Made by a program: the position numbers and the translations under genes | Shown here: positions 7,023 through 39,129 of the stretch, piece by piece | How positions within the stretch are numbered: position 1 is the stretch's first letter | How the letters are laid out: every line of letters begins with the position of its first letter | The notes under the pieces: model-generated | Databases searched by the model: none | Told to the model about the DNA's origin: nothing | The model's input: only the letters and a program-made list of their open reading frames with translations | NCBI RefSeq assembly: GCF_014270065.1 | Contig: NZ_JACNME010000001.1 | Span: 62,001-126,000, forward strand | Direction: 5' to 3' | From: Quadrisphaera sp. RL12-1S | Lineage (GTDB): Bacteria > Actinomycetota > Actinomycetes > Actinomycetales > Quadrisphaeraceae | DNA: 64,000 nt

Positions 7023-7079
7023 CTTGACAGGATTAGCGGAGATTATCTGTTGTTGATAAACTTTGCTAATCCTGTCAAG
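7023..7079 (+). promoter_or_regulatory. 57-bp AT-rich dyad (candidate operator) before the AAA ATPase gene
   Basis: Perfect 15-nt inverted arms, CTTGACAGGATTAGC at 7023-7037 and GCTAATCCTGTCAAG at 7065-7079, surround a second inverted pair, TTATC (7043-7047) and GATAA (7055-7059). Both pairs share the same centre at 7051. The segment is far richer in A+T than its surroundings. It ends 8 bp before the GTG of the ATPase and each outer arm contains TTGACA, a -35-like hexamer, once on each strand. It may be an operator, or a structured leader of the ATPase mRNA; I could not place a convincing -10. Confidence 0.7.
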
Positions 7080-11237: not shown

Positions 11238-11294
11238 GGAAGTCCATGATCACGGCGGGGAGGGGGTCCCTGCCCTCCGTGATCATGGACTTCC
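11238..11294 (+). terminator. Hairpin of the GTGATCATGG repeat family
   Basis: Perfect 18-nt arms (11238-11255 and 11277-11294; right arm begins CCGTGATCATGG) flank a 21-nt G/C-rich loop. It lies 16 bp after the DUF885 stop and before the co-oriented symporter gene, so it is placed as a factor-independent terminator, but no T-run follows. The unit orientation is reversed relative to the copies at 15299 and 35522. The rest of 11295-11516 holds nothing I recognise. Confidence 0.6.
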
Positions 11295-15298: not shown

Positions 15299-15352
15299 CG
15301 TGATCATGGGAGTTGTGCCTACCGGGTGGTAGGCACAACTCCCACGATCACG
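15299..15352. terminator. Bidirectional hairpin built of two inverted 25-nt repeat units
   Basis: Arms at 15299-15323 and 15328-15352 are 25 nt with one mismatch and a 4-nt loop. Each arm starts from the outside with CGTGATC(A/G)TGGGAGTT. It fills the gap between two convergent genes, so it can stop transcription from both sides. Confidence 0.75.
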
Positions 15353-18236: not shown

Positions 18237-20075
18237 GTGACCAAGGTCCTGGTCGCCAACCGCGGCGAGATCGCCGTCCGCGTGATCAGGGCCTGCAAGG
18301 ACGCCGGCATCGGCTCCGTCGCGGTCTACGCCGAGCCGGACCGGCACGCCCTGCACGTGGAGCTCGCCGACGAGGCGCACGCCCTGGGCGGCACCACCTC
18401 CGCCGAGTCGTACCTGCGCGCCGACCTCCTGCTCGAGGTCGCGGCCCGCTCCGGCGCCGATGCCGTCCACCCCGGCTACGGGTTCCTCTCGGAGGACTCC
18501 GGCTTCGCCCGCGCCGTGGTCGACGCCGGCCTGACCTGGATCGGCCCGCCGCCCGCCGCCATCGAGGCCCTCGGCGACAAGGTCTCCGCCCGCGAGATCG
18601 CCGAGAAGGTCGGCGCTCCCCTGGTCTCCGGCACGCCCGGCCCCGTCAGCGGCGTGGACGAGGTGCTGGCCTTCGTCGACGCGCACGGCCTGCCGGTGGC
18701 CATCAAGGCCGCCTACGGCGGCGGGGGTCGCGGCCTCAAGGTGGCGCGCACCCGCGAGGAGGTCGGCGAGCTGTACGAGTCGGCCGTCCGCGAGGCCGTG
18801 GCGGCCTTCGGGCGCGGCGAGTGCTTCGTGGAGCGCTACCTCGACGAGCCCCGGCACGTGGAGACGCAGTGCCTGGCGGACTCCCACGGCGGCGTCGTCG
18901 TCGTGTCCACCCGCGACTGCTCGCTGCAGCGCCGTCACCAGAAGCTGGTGGAGGAGGCGCCCGCGCCCTTCCTCACGCAGGCGCAGGAGACGTCGCTGCG
19001 CGAGGCGTCCAAGGCGATCCTGCGCGAGGCGGGCTACGTCGGCGCCGGCACCTGCGAGTTCCTCGTGGCCAAGGACGGCACGGTCTCCTTCCTCGAGGTG
19101 AACACGCGCCTGCAGGTGGAGCACCCGGTGACCGAGGAGGTCACCGGCATCGACCTGGTGCGCGAGCAGTTCCGCCTGGCCGCCGGCGAGCCGCTCGGCT
19201 ACGACGACCCGCCCGCGCGCGGCCACAGCTTCGAGTTCCGCATCAACGGCGAGGACCCGGGCCGGGGCTTCCTGCCCGCCCCCGGCACCGTCAGCCGGTT
19301 CGAGGCGCCGTCCGGCCCCGGCGTCCGGGTGGACGCCGGCATCCGCAGCGGCGACGTCGTCTCCGGCGCGTTCGACTCCCTGCTCGCCAAGCTGGTGGTC
19401 ACCGGCGCCACCCGCGAGCAGGCGCTGCAGCGCGCCCGTCGCGCGCTGGCGGAGATGGCCGTGGACGGCATGCCGACCGTGCTCCCGTTCCACCGCCTCG
19501 TCGTGGACGACCCGGCCTTCACCGCGGTCGACCCGGCTGCGGCCGCGTCAGCCCCGTCCTCGGCGGCGGCCGTCGGGCAGGCGGAGCTGTTCCGGGTGCA
19601 CACGCGCTGGATCGAGACCGCCTGGACCGGCTCGACGGCGCCGTGGTCCGGCCCCGCGCCGGAGGCCGCCGACCCGGCGGACGCCGAGCGCTCCACCGTG
19701 GTGGTGGAGGTGGCCGGCAAGCGCCTCGAGGTGACCCTGCCCGGCTGGGTCATGGAGGCCGGCGCGCAGGTCGGCGGTGCCGTGCAGTCGGCGCGCCGGC
19801 AGCAGAAGCGGCCCCGCAACGCCGCGGCCGCCGCGAAGGCCGCCGGCGGCGACGCCCTCGTGGCGCCGATGCAGGGCACGCTCGTCAAGGTGGCCGTCGA
19901 GGAGGGGCAGAGCGTGGTCGCGGGAGACCTCGTCGTCGTCCTCGAGGCCATGAAGATGGAGCAGCCGCTGACCGCCCACAAGGACGGCGTGGTCACGGGC
20001 CTCAAGGCCGCTGTCGGCGACACCCTCACCACCGGCGCCGTGATCTGCACCCTCAAGGACGCCCCGGCCAGCTGA
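18237..20075 (+). CDS. Acyl-CoA carboxylase alpha subunit (biotin carboxylase + biotin carrier)
   Basis: A 612-residue two-function protein. Residues 1 to about 445 are biotin carboxylase: [37 protein letters not shown]-grasp glycine loop [10 protein letters not shown] (about 161-170), [19 protein letters not shown] and [16 protein letters not shown]. The C-terminus is a biotinyl domain with the EAMKM target lysine at about 573. It carboxylates biotin with bicarbonate and ATP for the beta subunit. The GTG at 18237 gives the usual short N-terminus of the family. It is 17.6 kb from the beta and epsilon genes, with lpdA convergent behind it. Confidence 0.93.
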
Positions 20076-20107
20076 CGGCCGGCGCTCGCCGGTCGGCGGT
20101 CAGGCCG

Positions 20108-21529
20108 TCAGGTGGCGACGTGCAGGCGGCGGGCCGCCTCGGCCACCGAGCCGGACAGCGACGGGTAGACCGTGAAGGCGTGCGCCACCTGGTCGACGGT
20201 CAGGCCGTGCTCGACCGCGAGCGCCACCGGGAAGATCAGCTCCGAGGCGCGCGGTGCGCAGACGACGCCTCCGAGCACCCGGCCGGACCCGGTGGAGGCG
20301 AAGAGCTTCACGAAGCCGTCGCGGATGCCCAGCATCTTGGCGCGGGCGTTGCCGGCCAGCGGCAGCATGAGCACCTCGCCGTCCACCTCACCGGACTCCA
20401 CCTGCTCCTGGCTCCAGCCGACGGTGGCGATCTCGGGGGCGGTGAAGATGTTCGCGGAGACCTTGCGCAGCCGCAGCGGGCTGACGGCGTCACCGAGGGC
20501 GTGCCACATGGCGGTGCGCCCCTGCATGGCCGCCACGGACGCCAGCGGGAGCACACCGGTGCAGTCACCGGCGGCGTAGACGCCGCGCGCGGAGGTCCGC
20601 GAGACCCGGTCGACCTCGACGTGCCCGCTCTCGGAGAGCTGCACGCCGGCCTCCTCCAGGCCGATGCCGGCGGTGTTGGGCACCGACCCCACCGCCATGA
20701 GGCAGTGCGACCCGCGCACCTCACGGCCGTCCTCGAGGGTCACCACCACCCGGTCGCCCTCGCGCCGCGCGGCCTTCGCCCGCGAGCGCCCCATGAGCTC
20801 CATGCCGCGGCGGCGGAAGACGTCCTCGATGACCTCGGCCGCGTCGGCGTCCTGCCCCGGCAGCACGCGGTCGCGGCTGGAGACGAGGACGACGTCGGAG
20901 CCGAGCGCGTCGTAGGCGCTGGCGAACTCGGCGCCCGTCACGCCGGAGCCGACGACGACGAGCCGCTCGGGGATGCTCTCCAGCTGGTAGAGCTGCTTCC
21001 AGGTGAGGATGCGCTCGCCGTCCGGTTTCGCGGAGTCCATCTCGCGCGGCGAGGAGCCGGTGGAGACCAGGGTGATGTCGGCCTGCAGGGTCTCGCTGCC
21101 GCCGCCCTCGAGGTCGGCGACCACGCGCTCGGTGCCGTCGAGCCGGCCGGAACCGCGTAGGACGCGCACGCCCTCGGCGGCGAGGCGGCGCTCGATGTCG
21201 GCGGACTGCGCCTCGGCGAGCTTGCGCACGCGGGCGTTGACCCGGCCCAGGTCGACGGTGATGGGCTCCTTGGTCTCCGGGTCGCCATCGCTGCCGGGGA
21301 AGCGCAGCCCCAGCTCCTCGGCCTCGGCGGCGAGGTTCATGACCTCGGCGACGGAGATGAGGGTCTTGGAGGGGACCACGTCGGTGAGGACGGTGGAGCC
21401 GCCCATCCCGGCGCGTTCGACGACGGTGGTCTCGGCCCCGAGCTGCGAGGCGACCAGCGCCGCCTCGTACCCCCCGGGACCTCCACCGATGACCACGACG
21501 CGCGGCGCTCGACCAGGCACGGACGTCAT
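20108..21529 (-). CDS. lpdA: NAD(P)H-quinone dehydrogenase, LpdA type
   Basis: A 473-residue flavoprotein of the disulfide-reductase fold: FAD-binding VVVIGGGPGGYEAALVASQLGA at the N-terminus, NAD(P)-binding VVVGSGVTGAEFASAYDALG (about 187-206), FAD-contacting GVYAAGDCTG and a dimerisation domain ending FTVYPSLSGSVAEAARRLH. At the place of the redox-active CxxxxC pair the sequence reads GGSTVLTDVVPSKTL, with no cysteine. This is the feature of mycobacterial LpdA (Rv3303c), which reduces quinones rather than lipoamide. Start ATG gives a full N-terminal FAD motif. Confidence 0.9.
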   Translation of the reverse strand: MTSVPGRAPRVVVIGGGPGGYEAALVASQLGAETTVVERAGMGGSTVLTDVVPSKTLISVAEVMNLAAEAEELGLRFPGSDGDPETKEPITVDLGRVNARVRKLAEAQSADIERRLAAEGVRVLRGSGRLDGTERVVADLEGGGSETLQADITLVSTGSSPREMDSAKPDGERILTWKQLYQLESIPERLVVVGSGVTGAEFASAYDALGSDVVLVSSRDRVLPGQDADAAEVIEDVFRRRGMELMGRSRAKAARREGDRVVVTLEDGREVRGSHCLMAVGSVPNTAGIGLEEAGVQLSESGHVEVDRVSRTSARGVYAAGDCTGVLPLASVAAMQGRTAMWHALGDAVSPLRLRKVSANIFTAPEIATVGWSQEQVESGEVDGEVLMLPLAGNARAKMLGIRDGFVKLFASTGSGRVLGGVVCAPRASELIFPVALAVEHGLTVDQVAHAFTVYPSLSGSVAEAARRLHVAT

Positions 21530-21650
21530 CTTCGCAGCCCGAGGCGGCCGGGGGTGCAGGCGGCATCCTCACACCGCCCGGACGGTCGACGCACGCCGGC
21601 CTCGTCCGTCCCTCCGGCCCACCCCCGGCCACTCCGCGTGTCCGGTGCAG

Positions 21651-21720
21651 GGTGCTCGGAGGATCGGCCCCTTGGGAGTGACCGGTCCGTCACTCCGAAG
21701 GGGCCGATCCTCCGAGCACC
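21651..21720. repeat. 70-bp hairpin in a divergent intergenic region
   Basis: Perfect 23-nt arms (21651-21673 and 21698-21720, left arm starting GGTGCTCGGAGGATCGG) are extended inward by a second 8-nt pair (21675-21682 and 21689-21696) after a single mismatch, leaving a 6-nt loop CGGTCC. It lies between divergent lpdA and the AbiEi-like gene, upstream of both, so it is not placed as a terminator. The rest of 21530-21819 shows nothing else. Confidence 0.85.
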
Positions 21721-21819
21721 ACGACTCGATCACCCCGCTCCCCTGCCCGAGGGGCGGGCTGCGAGCGCACCTGTGGACGGCGCCAGCGGTGGCCACAGCA
21801 CGGGGGCCAGCCTGGGGCG

Positions 21820-22476
21820 GTGCACCCCGCCTCGCTGCTCCCGCCAGAGCTGGCCGACAGACCGTTCCGGGTCTCCGAGGCCCTGGCGCTCGGTGTGACG
21901 CCGAAGCGCCTGCGCAGCGCCGACCTGTGGGCCCCGTTCCGAGGCGTCCGCGCGCCCGTCTCCCTGGGCTGGAGCCCTCTCCTGCGCGCTCGGGCCGGGC
22001 TGCTCGTCTGCCCGCCGGGGACGTCGGTGGTCGGGCTGCACGCGGTCGCAGCGGCGGGACTCGTCCTGCCGTACGGCTTCGAGGCGGTGCTGGCCGACGA
22101 GCCGCTGCTCGTGCGCGTCCCGCTGTCGACGTGGCACTGGAACTGGTCGCGGGTCGGCTTCGCCGTCGACCCCGCTCCCCTGCCGGCCACCGTGCCCAGG
22201 GTCACCGATGACGGTGCGCGGCGCCCGGCCGACGCCCACCTGTGGGCGCGCGTGGTCGCCTGGCCGTCCCCCCGTCTGCACCGCCTGCGACACCGCCCCT
22301 ACGCGCTCACGCTGGGAGCGCAGGTCGTCGAGCGGCTCGGCGGAGACCTCGCGCCTCTGCAGGACGCCGTCCTCGTGCTCCCCCAGGGGGTGCGGCACCG
22401 GCTGGTGCCGCTCATCGCGGAGCTCGCCAGGACGACGGCGAGGACGGTGGAAGACGGCGGTTCCGGGCGCAGGTGA
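21820..22476 (+). CDS. Hypothetical protein with AbiEi-antitoxin-like N-terminus
   Basis: A 218-residue protein. The start FRVSEALALGVTPKRLRSADLWAPFRGVRAP resembles the winged-helix AbiEi N-terminal domain seen in many actinobacterial proteins, where a gene-regulatory or DUF559 nuclease-like domain usually follows. Here the C-terminal half (RRPADAHLWARVVAWPSPRLHRLRHRPYALTL...) has no recognisable nuclease motif and the protein ends in a basic tail. No AbiEii-like toxin gene is adjacent. CAGCCT lies 6 nt before the GTG, a weak leaderless -10. Function is unknown. Confidence 0.6.
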   Translation: MHPASLLPPELADRPFRVSEALALGVTPKRLRSADLWAPFRGVRAPVSLGWSPLLRARAGLLVCPPGTSVVGLHAVAAAGLVLPYGFEAVLADEPLLVRVPLSTWHWNWSRVGFAVDPAPLPATVPRVTDDGARRPADAHLWARVVAWPSPRLHRLRHRPYALTLGAQVVERLGGDLAPLQDAVLVLPQGVRHRLVPLIAELARTTARTVEDGGSGRR

Positions 22477-22488
22477 GCGACTGCTCGC

Positions 22489-22494
22489 TACCCT
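22489..22494 (+). promoter_or_regulatory. -10 hexamer TACCCT for a leaderless transcript
   Basis: TACCCT lies 7 nt before the ATG at 22502, and no Shine-Dalgarno sequence is present. It fixes the ATG as the start. Confidence 0.5.
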
Positions 22495-22501
22495 CCCGCT
22501 C

Positions 22502-22978
22502 ATGGCGCTGTACGCGGCGTACGCCAGCAACCTGCACCCCGAGCGGATGTCCGTGCGGGCGCCGCACTCACCCCTGGAGCAGACGGGCTGGCTGCGCGGC
22601 TGGCGCCTGACGTTCGGCGGGGAGGAACGCGGCTGGGACGGGGCGCTCGCCACGGTCGTGGAGGTGCCCCCCTCGGAGGACCCCGACGCCGAGGTCGAGC
22701 ACCAGGTGTTCGTGGCCCTGTACGACCTGACCGACGCCGACGCGGAGCAGCTGGACCAGTGGGAGGGCGTCGACATCGGTCTCTACACCAAGGTCAAGGT
22801 GCGGGTGGACACCCTCGAGGGCGAGCGGCTCGCCTGGACGTACGTGCTCGACGACTACGAGGGCGGCCTCCCGAGCGCCTTCTACCTGGGGATGCTGGCC
22901 GACGCCGCCGAGGCCGCCGGCGCCCCGGACGACTACGTGGCCGAGCTGCGCTCGCGCCCCTGCCGCTCGGTCGGCTGA
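22502..22978 (+). CDS. Gamma-glutamylcyclotransferase-like protein
   Basis: A 158-residue single-domain protein of the GGCT/AIG2-like fold. The opening LYAAYASNLHPERM carries the Y-x-S/A-N-L substrate loop, followed by LRGWRLTFGGEERGWDGALATVVE and EQLDQWEGVDIGLYTKVKVRV; the Glu of WEGV is in the position of the catalytic acid. Family members release 5-oxoproline from gamma-glutamyl amines or peptides; actinobacteria use mycothiol, so a glutathione substrate is doubtful. A TACCCT hexamer 7 nt before the ATG supports this start. Confidence 0.8.
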   Translation: MALYAAYASNLHPERMSVRAPHSPLEQTGWLRGWRLTFGGEERGWDGALATVVEVPPSEDPDAEVEHQVFVALYDLTDADAEQLDQWEGVDIGLYTKVKVRVDTLEGERLAWTYVLDDYEGGLPSAFYLGMLADAAEAAGAPDDYVAELRSRPCRSVG

Positions 22979-23044
22979 CCCCGCACTGAGCCCGCACTGA
23001 GCCCACGGGGCGCCCGCCGCGCAGGGCTCGCGCGCGCCTGCCAG

Positions 23045-23050
23045 TACGGT
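23045..23050 (+). promoter_or_regulatory. -10 hexamer TACGGT for a leaderless punA transcript
   Basis: TACGGT lies 7 nt before GTG 23058. This favours the GTG over the ATG that directly follows it at 23061. Confidence 0.45.
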
Positions 23051-23057
23051 GCCCCGC

Positions 23058-23954
23058 GTGATGGACCCCTTCGACAGCGTCGCGCCGGACCACGCGAACG
23101 ACCCGGCCCACGACCTCGGCGACCCCGGCACCGACCCCTTCCAGGTCGCGGCCTCCGCCGCCCGGGCCATCGCCGAGCGCACCGGCGTCGCGCGCCACGA
23201 CACGGCCCTGGTGCTCGGCTCCGGCTGGCAGGTCACCGCTGACCTGCTGGGCGAGACGACCGCCGAGATCGCCGTCACCGACCTGCCCGGCTTCCCGCCC
23301 GCGGCGGCCCTCGGCCACGTGGGCACGGTGCGCTCGGTGAGCGTCACCGACGACGCGGGCACCGAGCGCCACGTGCTGGTGTTCCTCTCGCGGACGCACC
23401 TGTACGAGGGCCGCGGGGTGCGTCCGGTGGTCCACGCCGTGCGGACGGCCGCTGCGGCGGGCTGCGCGAGCATCGTCCTGACGAACGGCTGCGGCGGCAT
23501 CGACCCGGGCCGCGGTCCGGGCACGCCGGTGCTCATCAGCGACCACATCAACCTCACGGCGACGTCGCCGCTCGAGGGCGCCACGTTCATCGACCTCACG
23601 GACCTGTACTCCTCGCGGCTGCGCGGGCTCGCGCGCCAGGTGCAGACCGAGCTGACCGAGGGCGTGTACGTGCAGTTCCCCGGCCCCCACTACGAGACGC
23701 CCGCCGAGGTCCGGATGGCGGGCCGCATGGGCGGTGACCTGGTCGGCATGTCCACCGCCCTGGAGGCCATCGCCGCGCGCCAGGCCGGCCTGGAGGTGCT
23801 GGGCATCTCGCTGGTCACCAACCTGGCGGCGGGGGTGAGCCCCACCCCCCTGGACGCGCAGGAGGTCATCGACGCGGGGAAGGCGGCGGGCCCGCGCATC
23901 GGGGCGCTGCTGGCGTCCGTCGTGCGCCGCGTCCTCGCCGAGCCGCGCCCGTGA
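23058..23954 (+). CDS. punA: Purine-nucleoside phosphorylase
   Basis: A 298-residue class I (trimeric) purine nucleoside phosphorylase. Motifs: VLGSGWQVTADLL (phosphate loop), GHVGTVRSVSV, HLYEGRGVRPVVHAVRTAAAAG, LTNGCGGIDPG, FPGPHYETPAEVRMAGRMGGDLVGMSTALEAIAARQAGLEVLGISLVTNLAAG (purine and ribose site). It splits inosine and guanosine nucleosides into base and (deoxy)ribose-1-phosphate. The mutase gene behind it overlaps by 4 bp (GTGA) and would convert the sugar-1-phosphate. The GTG start was chosen from the leaderless promoter; the adjacent ATG differs by one residue. Confidence 0.92.
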   Translation: MMDPFDSVAPDHANDPAHDLGDPGTDPFQVAASAARAIAERTGVARHDTALVLGSGWQVTADLLGETTAEIAVTDLPGFPPAAALGHVGTVRSVSVTDDAGTERHVLVFLSRTHLYEGRGVRPVVHAVRTAAAAGCASIVLTNGCGGIDPGRGPGTPVLISDHINLTATSPLEGATFIDLTDLYSSRLRGLARQVQTELTEGVYVQFPGPHYETPAEVRMAGRMGGDLVGMSTALEAIAARQAGLEVLGISLVTNLAAGVSPTPLDAQEVIDAGKAAGPRIGALLASVVRRVLAEPRP

Positions 23955-25771
23955 GCGCCGCCTCCCCCCTGGTCCGCCTCGACGCGCGGACCGCTGACCG
24001 CGTCCGCGCCTGGGCCGCGGGGGACGTCGACGACGACGACCGCGCCGCGCTGCTGGCGCTGCTCGACCGCGCCGAGAGCGGGGACGACGACGCAGCGGCC
24101 GCGGCCGCCGAGGTGGCCTCCGCCGTCGACGGCCACCTGGAGTTCGGCACGGCGGGCCTGCGCGGAGCGCTGGGTCCGGGCAGCAACCGGATGAACCGCG
24201 CCGTGGTGGTGCGGGCCGCCGCCGGCCTGGCCGCCCACCTGCACCGGGTCGCCGCCCCCGGCGACGCCGAGGCGGGCCCGCCGATGTGCGTCATCGGGTA
24301 CGACGCGCGCCGCGGGTCGGCGCAGTTCGCCCGCGACACCGCCGCGGTGATGACCGCGGCCGGGGTGCGCGCCCTGCTGCTGCCGCGCCCGCTGCCCACG
24401 CCCGTGCTGGCCTTCGCCGTGCGCCACCTCGACGCCGACGCCGGCGTCATGGTCACCGCGAGCCACAACCCGCCGCAGGACAACGGCTACAAGGTCTACC
24501 TGGGCGGGCGGTGCACGCCGTCGTCGTCGTCCTCCGGGGCTGCCGGGGGTGCGGACGCCCCCGGGAGGGGTGCGCAGATCGTGCCGCCCGCCGACGCCCA
24601 GATCGCCGCCGACATCGCGGCGCAGCCGCCCGCCCGGGAGGTGCCCCGCGCCGAGAAGGGGTGGTCGGTGCTCGGCGGCGACGTGCTCGAGGCGTACCTG
24701 CACGGGGCCTCGGCGCTGCCCGGACCGCCTCCGGCCGACGGCAGGCGCTCCGCGCTGCGCGTGGTGCTCACCCCCGTGCACGGCGTCGGCGGCGCGGTGG
24801 TGGTGGAGGCGCTGCGCCGGGCCGGTGTCAGCGACGTGTCCGTGGTCCCCGAGCAGGCGGACCCGGACCCCGCCTTCCCCACCACCGCGTTCCCCAACCC
24901 CGAGGAGCCGGGGGTCCTCGACCTGGCGCTCGACCTGGCGCGCCGGCGCGACGCGCACCTGGTCATCGCCGTGGACCCGGACGCCGACCGCTGCGCCGTC
25001 GCCGTGCCCGACGCCTCCCGCGAGGGGGGCTGGCGCGCCCTCACCGGTGACGAGCTGGGCGCGGTGCTCGGGGAGCACGTGGCCTCCGGGGGGCTGGCCG
25101 GACCGGGCGGCGCGCTGCCCCGTGACGCCGTGCTGGCGTGCTCGCTGGTCTCCTCCAGCCTGCTGGGCCGGATCGCCGCGGCGCACGGCCTCGGCCACGC
25201 CGAGACCCTCACCGGGTTCAAGTGGATCTCCCGTGCGCCGCGCCTCGCGTACGGCTACGAGGAGGCCATCGGCTACTGCGCGGCGCCCGCGCTGGTGCGC
25301 GACAAGGACGGCGTCTCCGCGTCCGTGGTGGTGGCCGCGCTCGCCGCGGACCTGCGGGCCCGCGGACGCACGCTCCTCGACGTCCTCGACGACCTCGCGG
25401 TGCAGCACGGTGTCCACGCCACCGGACAGGTCTCGGTGCGCGTGGAGGACCTCTCGCTCATCTCCGACGCGATGGCGAGGCTGCGGGCCCAGCCCCCGGC
25501 TGAGCTGGCGGGACGCGCCGTCGAGCGCGTGGACGACCTGTCGGAGGGCTCCGTGGAGACCACGGGGGTCCCCGCCACCGACGGCCTGCGCTGGACCGTG
25601 GCCGGCGGCGGCCGGGTGGTCGTCCGCCCGAGCGGCACCGAGCCGAAGCTCAAGTGCTACCTCGAGGTGGTCGTGCCCGTCGACGGCGAGGGCCTGGCAG
25701 CAGCGCGCGCGCTGGCGGACCGGCGCCTCGCCGACCTGGGCACCGCGGTGAGGGCCCTCCTGGCCCTGTGA
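23951..25771 (+). CDS. Phospho-sugar mutase (phosphoglucomutase/phosphomannomutase family)
   Basis: A 606-residue alpha-D-phosphohexomutase. Visible are the active-site serine loop VTASHNPPQDNGYKVY (about 165-180), metal loop DPDADRCAVAVP (about 342-353), sugar loop GYEEAIGY (about 436-443) and phosphate loop RPSGTEPKLKCYLE (about 559-572). A Ser/Gly-rich insertion with SSSSSG follows the active site. Overlap with punA and the presence of deoC 1.2 kb away suggest that it isomerises ribose- or deoxyribose-1-phosphate, as PGM2-like enzymes do, rather than only hexose phosphates. The exact substrate is inferred. Confidence 0.88.
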   Translation: MSAASPLVRLDARTADRVRAWAAGDVDDDDRAALLALLDRAESGDDDAAAAAAEVASAVDGHLEFGTAGLRGALGPGSNRMNRAVVVRAAAGLAAHLHRVAAPGDAEAGPPMCVIGYDARRGSAQFARDTAAVMTAAGVRALLLPRPLPTPVLAFAVRHLDADAGVMVTASHNPPQDNGYKVYLGGRCTPSSSSSGAAGGADAPGRGAQIVPPADAQIAADIAAQPPAREVPRAEKGWSVLGGDVLEAYLHGASALPGPPPADGRRSALRVVLTPVHGVGGAVVVEALRRAGVSDVSVVPEQADPDPAFPTTAFPNPEEPGVLDLALDLARRRDAHLVIAVDPDADRCAVAVPDASREGGWRALTGDELGAVLGEHVASGGLAGPGGALPRDAVLACSLVSSSLLGRIAAAHGLGHAETLTGFKWISRAPRLAYGYEEAIGYCAAPALVRDKDGVSASVVVAALAADLRARGRTLLDVLDDLAVQHGVHATGQVSVRVEDLSLISDAMARLRAQPPAELAGRAVERVDDLSEGSVETTGVPATDGLRWTVAGGGRVVVRPSGTEPKLKCYLEVVVPVDGEGLAAARALADRRLADLGTAVRALLAL

Positions 25772-35521: not shown

Positions 35522-35574
35522 CGTGATCATGGGCAGTCGGCCACCTCGCAGGTGGCCGACCGCCCATGATCACG
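35522..35574. terminator. Inverted pair of 25-nt repeat units after the adenosine deaminase gene
   Basis: Arms 35522-35546 and 35550-35574, 25 nt each, one mismatch, 3-nt loop CGC. Each arm starts outside with CGTGATCATGGGC. It lies 19 bp downstream of the add stop and upstream of the VOC gene, so it probably ends the add transcript. Confidence 0.7.
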
Positions 35575-38585: not shown

Positions 38586-38608
38586 CCTGCCACCGCCGCC
38601 CGCCCCGC

Positions 38609-38706
38609 CCGCACCTGACCTCGGTCACCTCCGGAGGTGACCGAGGTCAGGTGCGGATGCGTCGCGCCAGGAACGCCCCACCGGGACTGACCGAGGTCAG
38701 TCCCGG
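38609..38706. repeat. Two palindromes of the TGACCNNGGTCA family between cdd and deoA
   Basis: First, a perfect 48-bp palindrome (arms 38609-38632 and 38633-38656, no loop) holding TGACCTCGGTCA and its complement. Second, 12-nt arms (38681-38692 and 38695-38706) around TGACCGAGGTCA. They fill the gap between the cdd stop and the deoA start and match the core of the 125-bp array at 983. They may terminate cdd or bind a regulator. Confidence 0.8.
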
Positions 38707-38718
38707 GACCGACCGAGG

Positions 38719-39129
38719 TCAGCCGCGCTCGAGCTCCTCCGGGCCGAAGCCCTGCGGCAGCACCTCGGCCATCGTCTGCACGCCCTCCGGCGTCGAGACG
38801 AGCAGCGACCGACCGCCGTGCTCGTAGAGCAGCTGGCGGCACCGCCCGCAGGGCATGATCAGCCGCGCGTCGTCGCCGCCCACGCAGGTGAACGCGACCA
38901 GGCGGCCCCCGCCGCCGGCCACCAGCGACGACACGAGCCCGCACTCGGCGCACAGCGTCACGCCGTACCCGGCGTTCTCGACGTTGCACCCGGTCACCAC
39001 GCGCCCGTCGTCCACGAGCGCCGCTGCGCCCACGTGGAAGCGCGAGTAGGGCGCGTAGGCCCGCTGCTGCACCTCGCGGGCGGCGGTCAGCAGCCCGTCC
39101 CAGTCGACGTCGTCCGAGCGGTCGTCCAC
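38719..39129 (-). CDS. cdd: Cytidine deaminase
   Basis: A 136-residue zinc deaminase. YAPYSRFHVGAAALVDDGRVVTGCNVENAGYG, the zinc site LCAECGLVSSLV and PCGRCRQLLYEH are complete, with CAE supplying the catalytic Glu and first Cys. It converts cytidine and deoxycytidine to uridine forms for DeoA. The GTG at 39129 has an AGGAGG site five bases upstream; a longer frame from 39225 runs through the hairpin region and is not used. Confidence 0.92.
   Translation of the reverse strand: MDDRSDDVDWDGLLTAAREVQQRAYAPYSRFHVGAAALVDDGRVVTGCNVENAGYGVTLCAECGLVSSLVAGGGGRLVAFTCVGGDDARLIMPCGRCRQLLYEHGGRSLLVSTPEGVQTMAEVLPQGFGPEELERG

Follow-up and report, generated by a model that had tools for sequence, protein, structure and literature searches.

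Why should a long and almost perfect DNA hairpin lie exactly where two divergent genes start? The question is raised by a stretch of 64,000 nucleotides from Quadrisphaera sp. RL12-1S (contig NZ_JACNME010000001.1, positions 62,001 to 126,000; here called the window). An earlier note, made from the letters alone, described at positions 21651-21720 a perfect stem of 23 nt and an inner stem of 8 nt.

The hairpin and its surroundings

This description is correct, and the coordinates are exact. The two arms span 21651-21682 and 21689-21720, each with a length of 32 nt, and are 97% complementary (31/32 pairs); from the outside inwards there are the perfect stem of 23 bp, a single mismatch, the inner stem of 8 bp and a loop of 6 nt. 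Shuffled sequences have a mean folding energy of -37.8 kcal/mol, whereas the hairpin reaches -75 kcal/mol (z about -10 on both strands); none of 200 shuffles folded equally well. Under one scoring rule, seven hairpins in the window score 16 or more, and this one has the top score of 29.

Both flanking genes start at the hairpin, as the earlier note had said. On the minus strand lies a gene for an LpdA-like NAD(P)H-quinone dehydrogenase (20108-21529), with its start at 21529 in the ORF list and at 21496 according to the gene caller. On the plus strand is an ORF of 218 aa (21820-22476). The LpdA protein is 93-97% identical to its homologues in Q. granulorum, Quadrisphaera sp. INWT6 and 'Streptomyces' sp. 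NP160. The last of these (NZ_VDMJ01000014.1) belongs to Quadrisphaera both by its LpdA protein (97% identity) and by genome grouping, and its record name looks wrong.

Several other hairpins are present in the window. Three of them, at 11238-11294 (with CATGATCA/TGATCATG in the arms), 15299-15352 and 35522-35574 (both with a TGATCATG foot, the latter also a weak match of 27 bits to the model described below), apparently represent a sister type of repeat. Positions 38598-38734 and 974-1183, far apart in the window, share a further inverted repeat (CCTGACCTCGGTCACCT, with close variants), which is possibly another dispersed palindrome. The hairpin at 7023-7079 (CTTGACAGGATTAGC) is richer in A+T, resembles none of the others and may belong to an imported element.

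A dispersed repeat family in Quadrisphaera

A search of the genome with the arm, as proposed in the earlier note, finds 13 places by BLAST, and 14 when a covariance model is used. The model (R1) was built from 28 copies; the genome of RL12-1S (G000) is a 4.6-Mb assembly. Members are found in all six of the Quadrisphaera genomes, and the 76 copies read are distributed as 14 in G000, 2 in G001, 1 in G002 (NP160), 32 in G003 (Q. granulorum), 22 in G004 (INWT6) and 5 in G005, these being minimum counts because the model scored no more than 150 candidates in each genome. The suggestion that the hairpin is a cruciform-forming repeat, related in build to other hairpins, is thus upheld for its repeat part: the palindrome is dispersed, while the three hairpins listed above resemble a sister type.

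The repeat is exactly 70 nt long in 72 of the 76 copies. Within it, in the 30 copies listed, is a core of 38 nt (21667-21704 in the window) of the form GCCCCTT...GTGAC...GTCAC...AAGGGGC. In the 28 aligned copies 15 core columns are invariant, namely GCCCC, GT, AC and AGGGGC. The outer arms are typical of the species, being CTCGGAGGATCG in G000, CTGTGnAGnGTTG in Q. granulorum and GCTCCGCAGATGC in INWT6, although each genome also has other types. Both sides vary in 17 of the 29 pairs (14.9 in shuffles), and the number of cells in which both sides have changed is 85, compared with 45.6 when shuffled and at most 31 when the arms are slid. Some copies are hybrids, carrying two different arm types. 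The species-specific arms therefore stay complementary, and palindromy is kept at the level of DNA.

Outside the genus, R1 gives a match in 3 of 143 genomes, at one weak place each, with strict filters that also missed G002. These three were rejected as family members since they fold into other stems, although one (L244) has the GTGAC/GTCAC apex. Separately, two other genera have very long hairpins between convergent genes (L242, about 1001-1052, and L243, about 1001-1056), whose sequences differ from the Quadrisphaera family.

Replication slippage, which corrects quasi-palindromes, might by itself have preserved the pairing of the arms in repeats that have no function and that spread long ago by some means or other. 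The hybrid arms, the species-specific arms and the tandem arrays described below all fit template switching. On the other hand, this explains neither the invariant core nor the bracketing of one gene family by repeats (see below), and we consider it quite unlikely.

Placement of the copies and absence of RNA signatures

Almost all the copies are intergenic (69/76), with four touching a called gene and three at contig edges. The flanking genes are tandem for 29 of the 76 copies, convergent for 22 and divergent for 18; when arrays are collapsed to 62 classified sites, the numbers are 26, 21 and 15. Convergent spacers are thus over-represented (21 of 62 sites, where 9 are expected; P about 6e-5), which could be due to promoter avoidance.

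This excess is also what would be expected if the hairpins were transcribed and served to end or stabilise transcripts, or formed a small RNA, as the earlier note had suggested. However, 15 of the 62 sites are divergent. Moreover, in the tandem copies, read in the orientation of transcription, there are 27 G-U mismatches and 39 A-C; G-U is not above A-C, and so there is no sign that pairing in RNA is being kept. No Rfam match was found up to E = 1 in window positions 20000-24000. The stem is not followed by a run of T: in the 76 copies, the next 12 nt contain about 1 T on average and never more than 4. A Rho-independent terminator was dropped for this reason. The small RNA of the earlier note is not supported either, given the mismatch counts and the presence of copies in every gene orientation. 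Any role as transcribed RNA appears very unlikely.

Palindromic intergenic repeats bring to mind the REP sequences served by RAYT transposases. A search with PF01797 (the Y1/HUH RAYT transposase) was negative in all six Quadrisphaera genomes and positive in 5 of 14 control genomes. Nor are the GTAG and CGTC tags enriched within 8 nt of the foot of the hairpin: GTAG is present at 1 of 152 feet and CGTC at 14, where shuffled means are 5.7 and 17.3. An origin from RAYT was therefore dropped.

Movement and turnover of the copies

There is one clean empty site. At C2:129522 of G000, two genes have 197 bp between them, including the hairpin, where the spacer of the same pair measures just 7 bp (G001) or 13 bp (G002); a duplication of the target could not be established at this single site. 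Two further candidates (L132 and L133) were rejected as empty sites because they are rearranged and not clean. Seven of the G000 copies have 123-187 bp in common with another G000 copy, and one of these longer copies has imperfect inverted ends, as judged by eye.

Other repeat sites are common to several species. In Q. granulorum there is a tandem array of 196-bp units upstream of lpdA, with three hairpins (L022, 2390-2859), at the position that matches the single copy of the window. On comparison at the base level, the hairpins beside lpdA align between G001 and G002, but those of G000 and G003 do not, so that the common position may be due to independent insertion or exchange. We note that INWT6 has pairs of copies 143-204 bp apart (L152, L155, L159, L161 and L168), and that at C1:223083-223152 of G003 (L195, L112) one hairpin is apparently nested in another, as if inserting into its own loop.

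The copies gather on the contig that carries the only dif-like site: 7 of 14 in G000 (contig C2, P = 8e-4) and 9 of 17 sites in G004 (contig C4, P = 6e-5). In these two genomes, the copies therefore show a bias towards the terminus side.

Might the repeats be MITEs, moved by an ordinary transposase? The common 123-187 bp, the inverted ends, the one clean insertion and the clustering on the dif-bearing contig would all suit such miniature transposons, and a bracketed gene would then be one that gathers in the same neutral spacers as the repeats. Like MITEs, the repeats are short, non-coding and dispersed, and the longer ones in G000 have the appearance of insertions. But no matching transposase or target duplication was found: there was no transposase in the 25 families listed of the 189 matched by 120 copy-flanking genes. 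In addition, the G000 matches listed to the element part of one long copy are all copies of the family, and the bracketing (62 of 81 genes against 3 of 384 controls) and genome-specific matching described below are too specific for this, leaving a MITE origin highly doubtful.

The protein groups that recur among the 120 flanking genes consist for the most part of orthologues or of small numbers of paralogues. From this survey a single pairing of repeat and gene, that of the 218-aa gene, became the lead.

The partner gene and its nuclease family

No Pfam family matches the 218-aa ORF above the cut-off, and DUF559 does not match it. The search was extended to its relatives, of which there are 20 stretches across the genus and 118 matches, in 30 of 33 genomes, outside it. 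The distant members are mostly around 300 aa long, with a C-terminal half that resembles DUF559/REase_MTES_1575, often below the Pfam cut-off. Pfam AbiEi_1 matches the member L333 (E = 1.7e-10), and PADLOC identifies AbiEi in L029 (E = 1.5e-7). DUF559 is listed in Pfam as of unknown function.

The predicted structure of L029 has a pLDDT of 85.9. Its C-terminal half is predicted to fold like I-Bth0305I (Z 11.8, 2.4 Å over 95 residues) and Vsr (Z 10.4, 2.2 Å over 98), and its N-terminal half like the AbiEi structure 6y8q (Z 10.1, 6.5 Å over 175 residues), in a ranking that covers the chains proposed by Foldseek, other families being possible. On this model, the family appears to consist of an AbiEi-like half joined to a half resembling Vsr and homing endonucleases. 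There are resemblances and differences on both sides. The C-terminal half is similar to I-Bth0305I/Vsr-like endonucleases (PDB 3r3p, 1cw0) in predicted fold and, weakly, in sequence to 3r3p (E = 0.007), but here it forms one part of a fusion with an AbiEi-like half, in a gene that repeats bracket and that is not intron-encoded. The N-terminal half has the predicted fold of AbiEi antitoxins (PDB 6y8q, 1zel; Pfam AbiEi_1), but full-length members carry a nuclease half.

The 218-aa protein matches the family profile with E = 5.5e-28, over positions 6-186 of 309 only. By this alignment it is without the nuclease half, the AbiEi-like half remaining. Its own predicted structure is poor (pLDDT 58). 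The gene evolves rapidly: between G000 and G001 its pS is 0.51, against 0.14 for lpdA, and its pN/pS is 0.60 against 0.16. It is far more diverged than lpdA, and hence either was not simply inherited beside it or mutates faster. In related genera, it is the downstream flank of lpdA, opposite to that of the hairpin, which carries a full-length nuclease gene (L025, L026, L029 and L033), and lpdA is thus a recurrent neighbour. The lpdA-like gene is probably merely the host site of the hairpin.

In each of the four closest members, that of the window included (G000, G001, G003 and G004), a family hairpin precedes the gene by 61-145 nt; in G004 the close member is away from lpdA and has two family hairpins. 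G002 has no close member, and has a single, decayed hairpin left (33 bits). G005, a 290-contig assembly, has no close relative of the gene, yet has five copies. Presence of the gene can be compared with copy number in six genomes only: those without it have 1 (decayed, G002) or 5 (G005), while G001, with it, has 2.

Repeats bracket the nuclease genes

We read 70 of the 118 members from outside the genus (mostly the stronger and longer ones) and the 20 from within it; 81 of the 90 could be placed, and 9 were dropped. For each, the 250 nt upstream were compared with the 250 nt downstream, a score of at least 40 being taken as a common repeat. One repeat is present on both sides in 62 of the 81 members, compared with 3 of 384 control genes (P about 5e-56, a value that overstates independence because the genes compared are related). 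The controls had been cleared of family genes; before clearing the count was 11 of 408. Bracketed members occur in 16 of 20 genera, the four genera without any having had one member each read. The two repeats are inverted in 42 cases and direct in 20. Many are palindromes or arrays of half-palindromes, while the two highest-scoring (L288 and L290) are not palindromic.

Within the genus, only 9 of 19 members are bracketed. There is no matching downstream repeat at the partner gene of the window or at its three close nuclease-less relatives, where the flanks score 18-28. An upstream palindrome scoring at least 13 is found for 14 of the 19 members in the genus. For members elsewhere that have an N-terminus the count is 14 of 49, and for controls, which may still include family genes, it is 18 of 507. 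Outside the genus, upstream hairpins are no stronger than downstream ones, the median score being 8 on both sides, and this prompted the comparison of the two flanks with each other.

These results bear on the suggestion of a shared operator. AbiEi antitoxins attach to inverted repeats in the promoter from which they are expressed, and the palindromes could accordingly be sites at which AbiEi-like proteins repress their own genes, the dispersed copies being a small regulon or accidental duplicates and the nuclease half serving some other purpose, such as DNA defence or repair. Besides the precedent of the antitoxins, it is in favour of this that the best upstream palindrome of genus members is mostly 50-180 nt before the start, and that the repeat is kept at members without a nuclease. 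Repression does not account for the same repeat being also downstream in most members, for 14, 22 and 32 copies in three genomes, or for the 22 of 76 copies between convergent genes, and the recurring flanking proteins, mostly orthologues or few paralogues, do not look like a regulon. In the window the hairpin may act as a shared operator for lpdA, but the 14 dispersed copies would be left unexplained, and as an account of the family we regard self-repression as unlikely.

Nuclease genes and dispersed repeats match within a genome

The sister repeat, searched for as TGATCATG-N20..50-CATGATCA, is abundant in the six Quadrisphaera genomes, with counts of 27 (G000, strict), 21, 26, 63, 36 and 29. 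Elsewhere, it is found 6-28 times in seven genomes and once in two, and is absent from 24; a reversed control gave 0. Among the matches listed, the inner arms are genome-typical in four genomes other than Quadrisphaera. Five half-sites, chosen by eye among the matches listed and without Quadrisphaera copies (from G016, G034, G027 (two) and G007), have their best match at the nuclease-gene locus of their own genome, with 0, 2, 0, 1 and 2 mismatches, compared with 4-5 in the next genome. The loci concerned (L322, L323, L333, L315 and L267) carry the half-sites within 250 nt of the nuclease gene. In these four genomes, the dispersed repeat is therefore the one that adjoins the genome's own nuclease gene.

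Two further comparisons were made in Quadrisphaera. Some 400 kb of G001 and G002, fetched regardless of hairpins, contain eight strong hairpins, of which three match repeats that flank Quadrisphaera nuclease genes (scores 60, 77 and 98; shuffled at most 36). The three TGATCATG hairpins of the window, compared with nuclease-gene flanks, score 34, 26 and 29, similar to shuffled sequences (29, 28 and 30). The dispersed R1 family also adjoins the 218-aa gene in this genus.

When the TGATCATG label, carried by 12 of 81 rows, is placed on a protein tree from a short search, it requires 4 changes; shuffled labels require 11.3, and in 0 of 500 shuffles was the number as low. Seven of the labelled rows, drawn from four genera, group together as a single clade with full support.

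Comparison with REP systems and a proposed mechanism

The nearest parallel is with REP sequences and their RAYT transposases (REPtrons), as described in the available text of Nunvar 2010 (PMC2817692) and Di Nocera 2013 (PMC3733652). There also, palindromic repeats are intergenic, a copy lies on each side of the gene for the enzyme, often in inverted orientation, covariation links repeat and enzyme, the repeats are species-specific and occur in clusters, and the enzyme gene diverges much faster than its neighbour. Three of the four hallmarks given in the abstract of Nunvar 2010 (PMC2817692) have counterparts here. The enzyme gene is bracketed across the family (62/81), though not at the window's own gene. 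The differences are that the enzyme here is a fusion of AbiEi-like and Vsr-like halves, where RAYT is a Y1 HUH transposase; that there is no GTAG/CGTC tag, and the arms of the strong hairpins are around 20-32 nt; and that the system is found in actinobacteria, a group that goes unmentioned in the available text of both papers. Without a Y1 transposase and a GTAG/CGTC tag, it works like a REP system but is not one by these tests. CGTC repeats have no known enzyme according to the available text of Di Nocera 2013 (PMC3733652).

On the basis of these observations, we consider it somewhat more probable than not that the hairpin represents one copy of a REP-like palindromic repeat scattered through the genome, in a system run by a Vsr-like nuclease that would bind, cut and copy the repeat. 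The AbiEi-like half would recognise the repeat (here through the core GCCCCTT...AAGGGGC), either as a palindromic duplex or as an extruded hairpin, and the nuclease half would cut at or near it. Repair of the break could then copy repeats into new sites, and the same repair might homogenise the arms within a species and turn over the nuclease gene. Since the partner gene of the window is without the nuclease half and without bracketing repeats, what the locus shows is most likely such a unit in decay, with a hairpin that is most likely a relic, or a putative binding site of the 218-aa protein that remains.

A wider proposal, which we put forward tentatively and at somewhat less than even confidence, is that this is a second and independent REP-like solution, in which a homing-endonuclease-like enzyme with an AbiEi-derived DNA reader cuts its own palindrome and spreads it through break repair across the order that includes Quadrisphaera. 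Rapid co-evolution of repeat and reader would give each species its own repeat words, and the window would represent the last stage of the process, with the nuclease gone and its reader and repeat still present.

In the open literature, subscription papers and preprints being outside the search, no paper was found on this pairing of repeat and nuclease, and the DUF559 papers there make no connection to repeats in the title or at the start of the abstract. The pairing suggests a way for repeats to spread that has not been described. If it is causal, it would provide a function for the AbiEi/DUF559 genes and would explain a class of palindromes in several genera. It would also provide a second type of enzyme with which REP-like spread, and the co-evolution of enzyme and repeat, could be tested.
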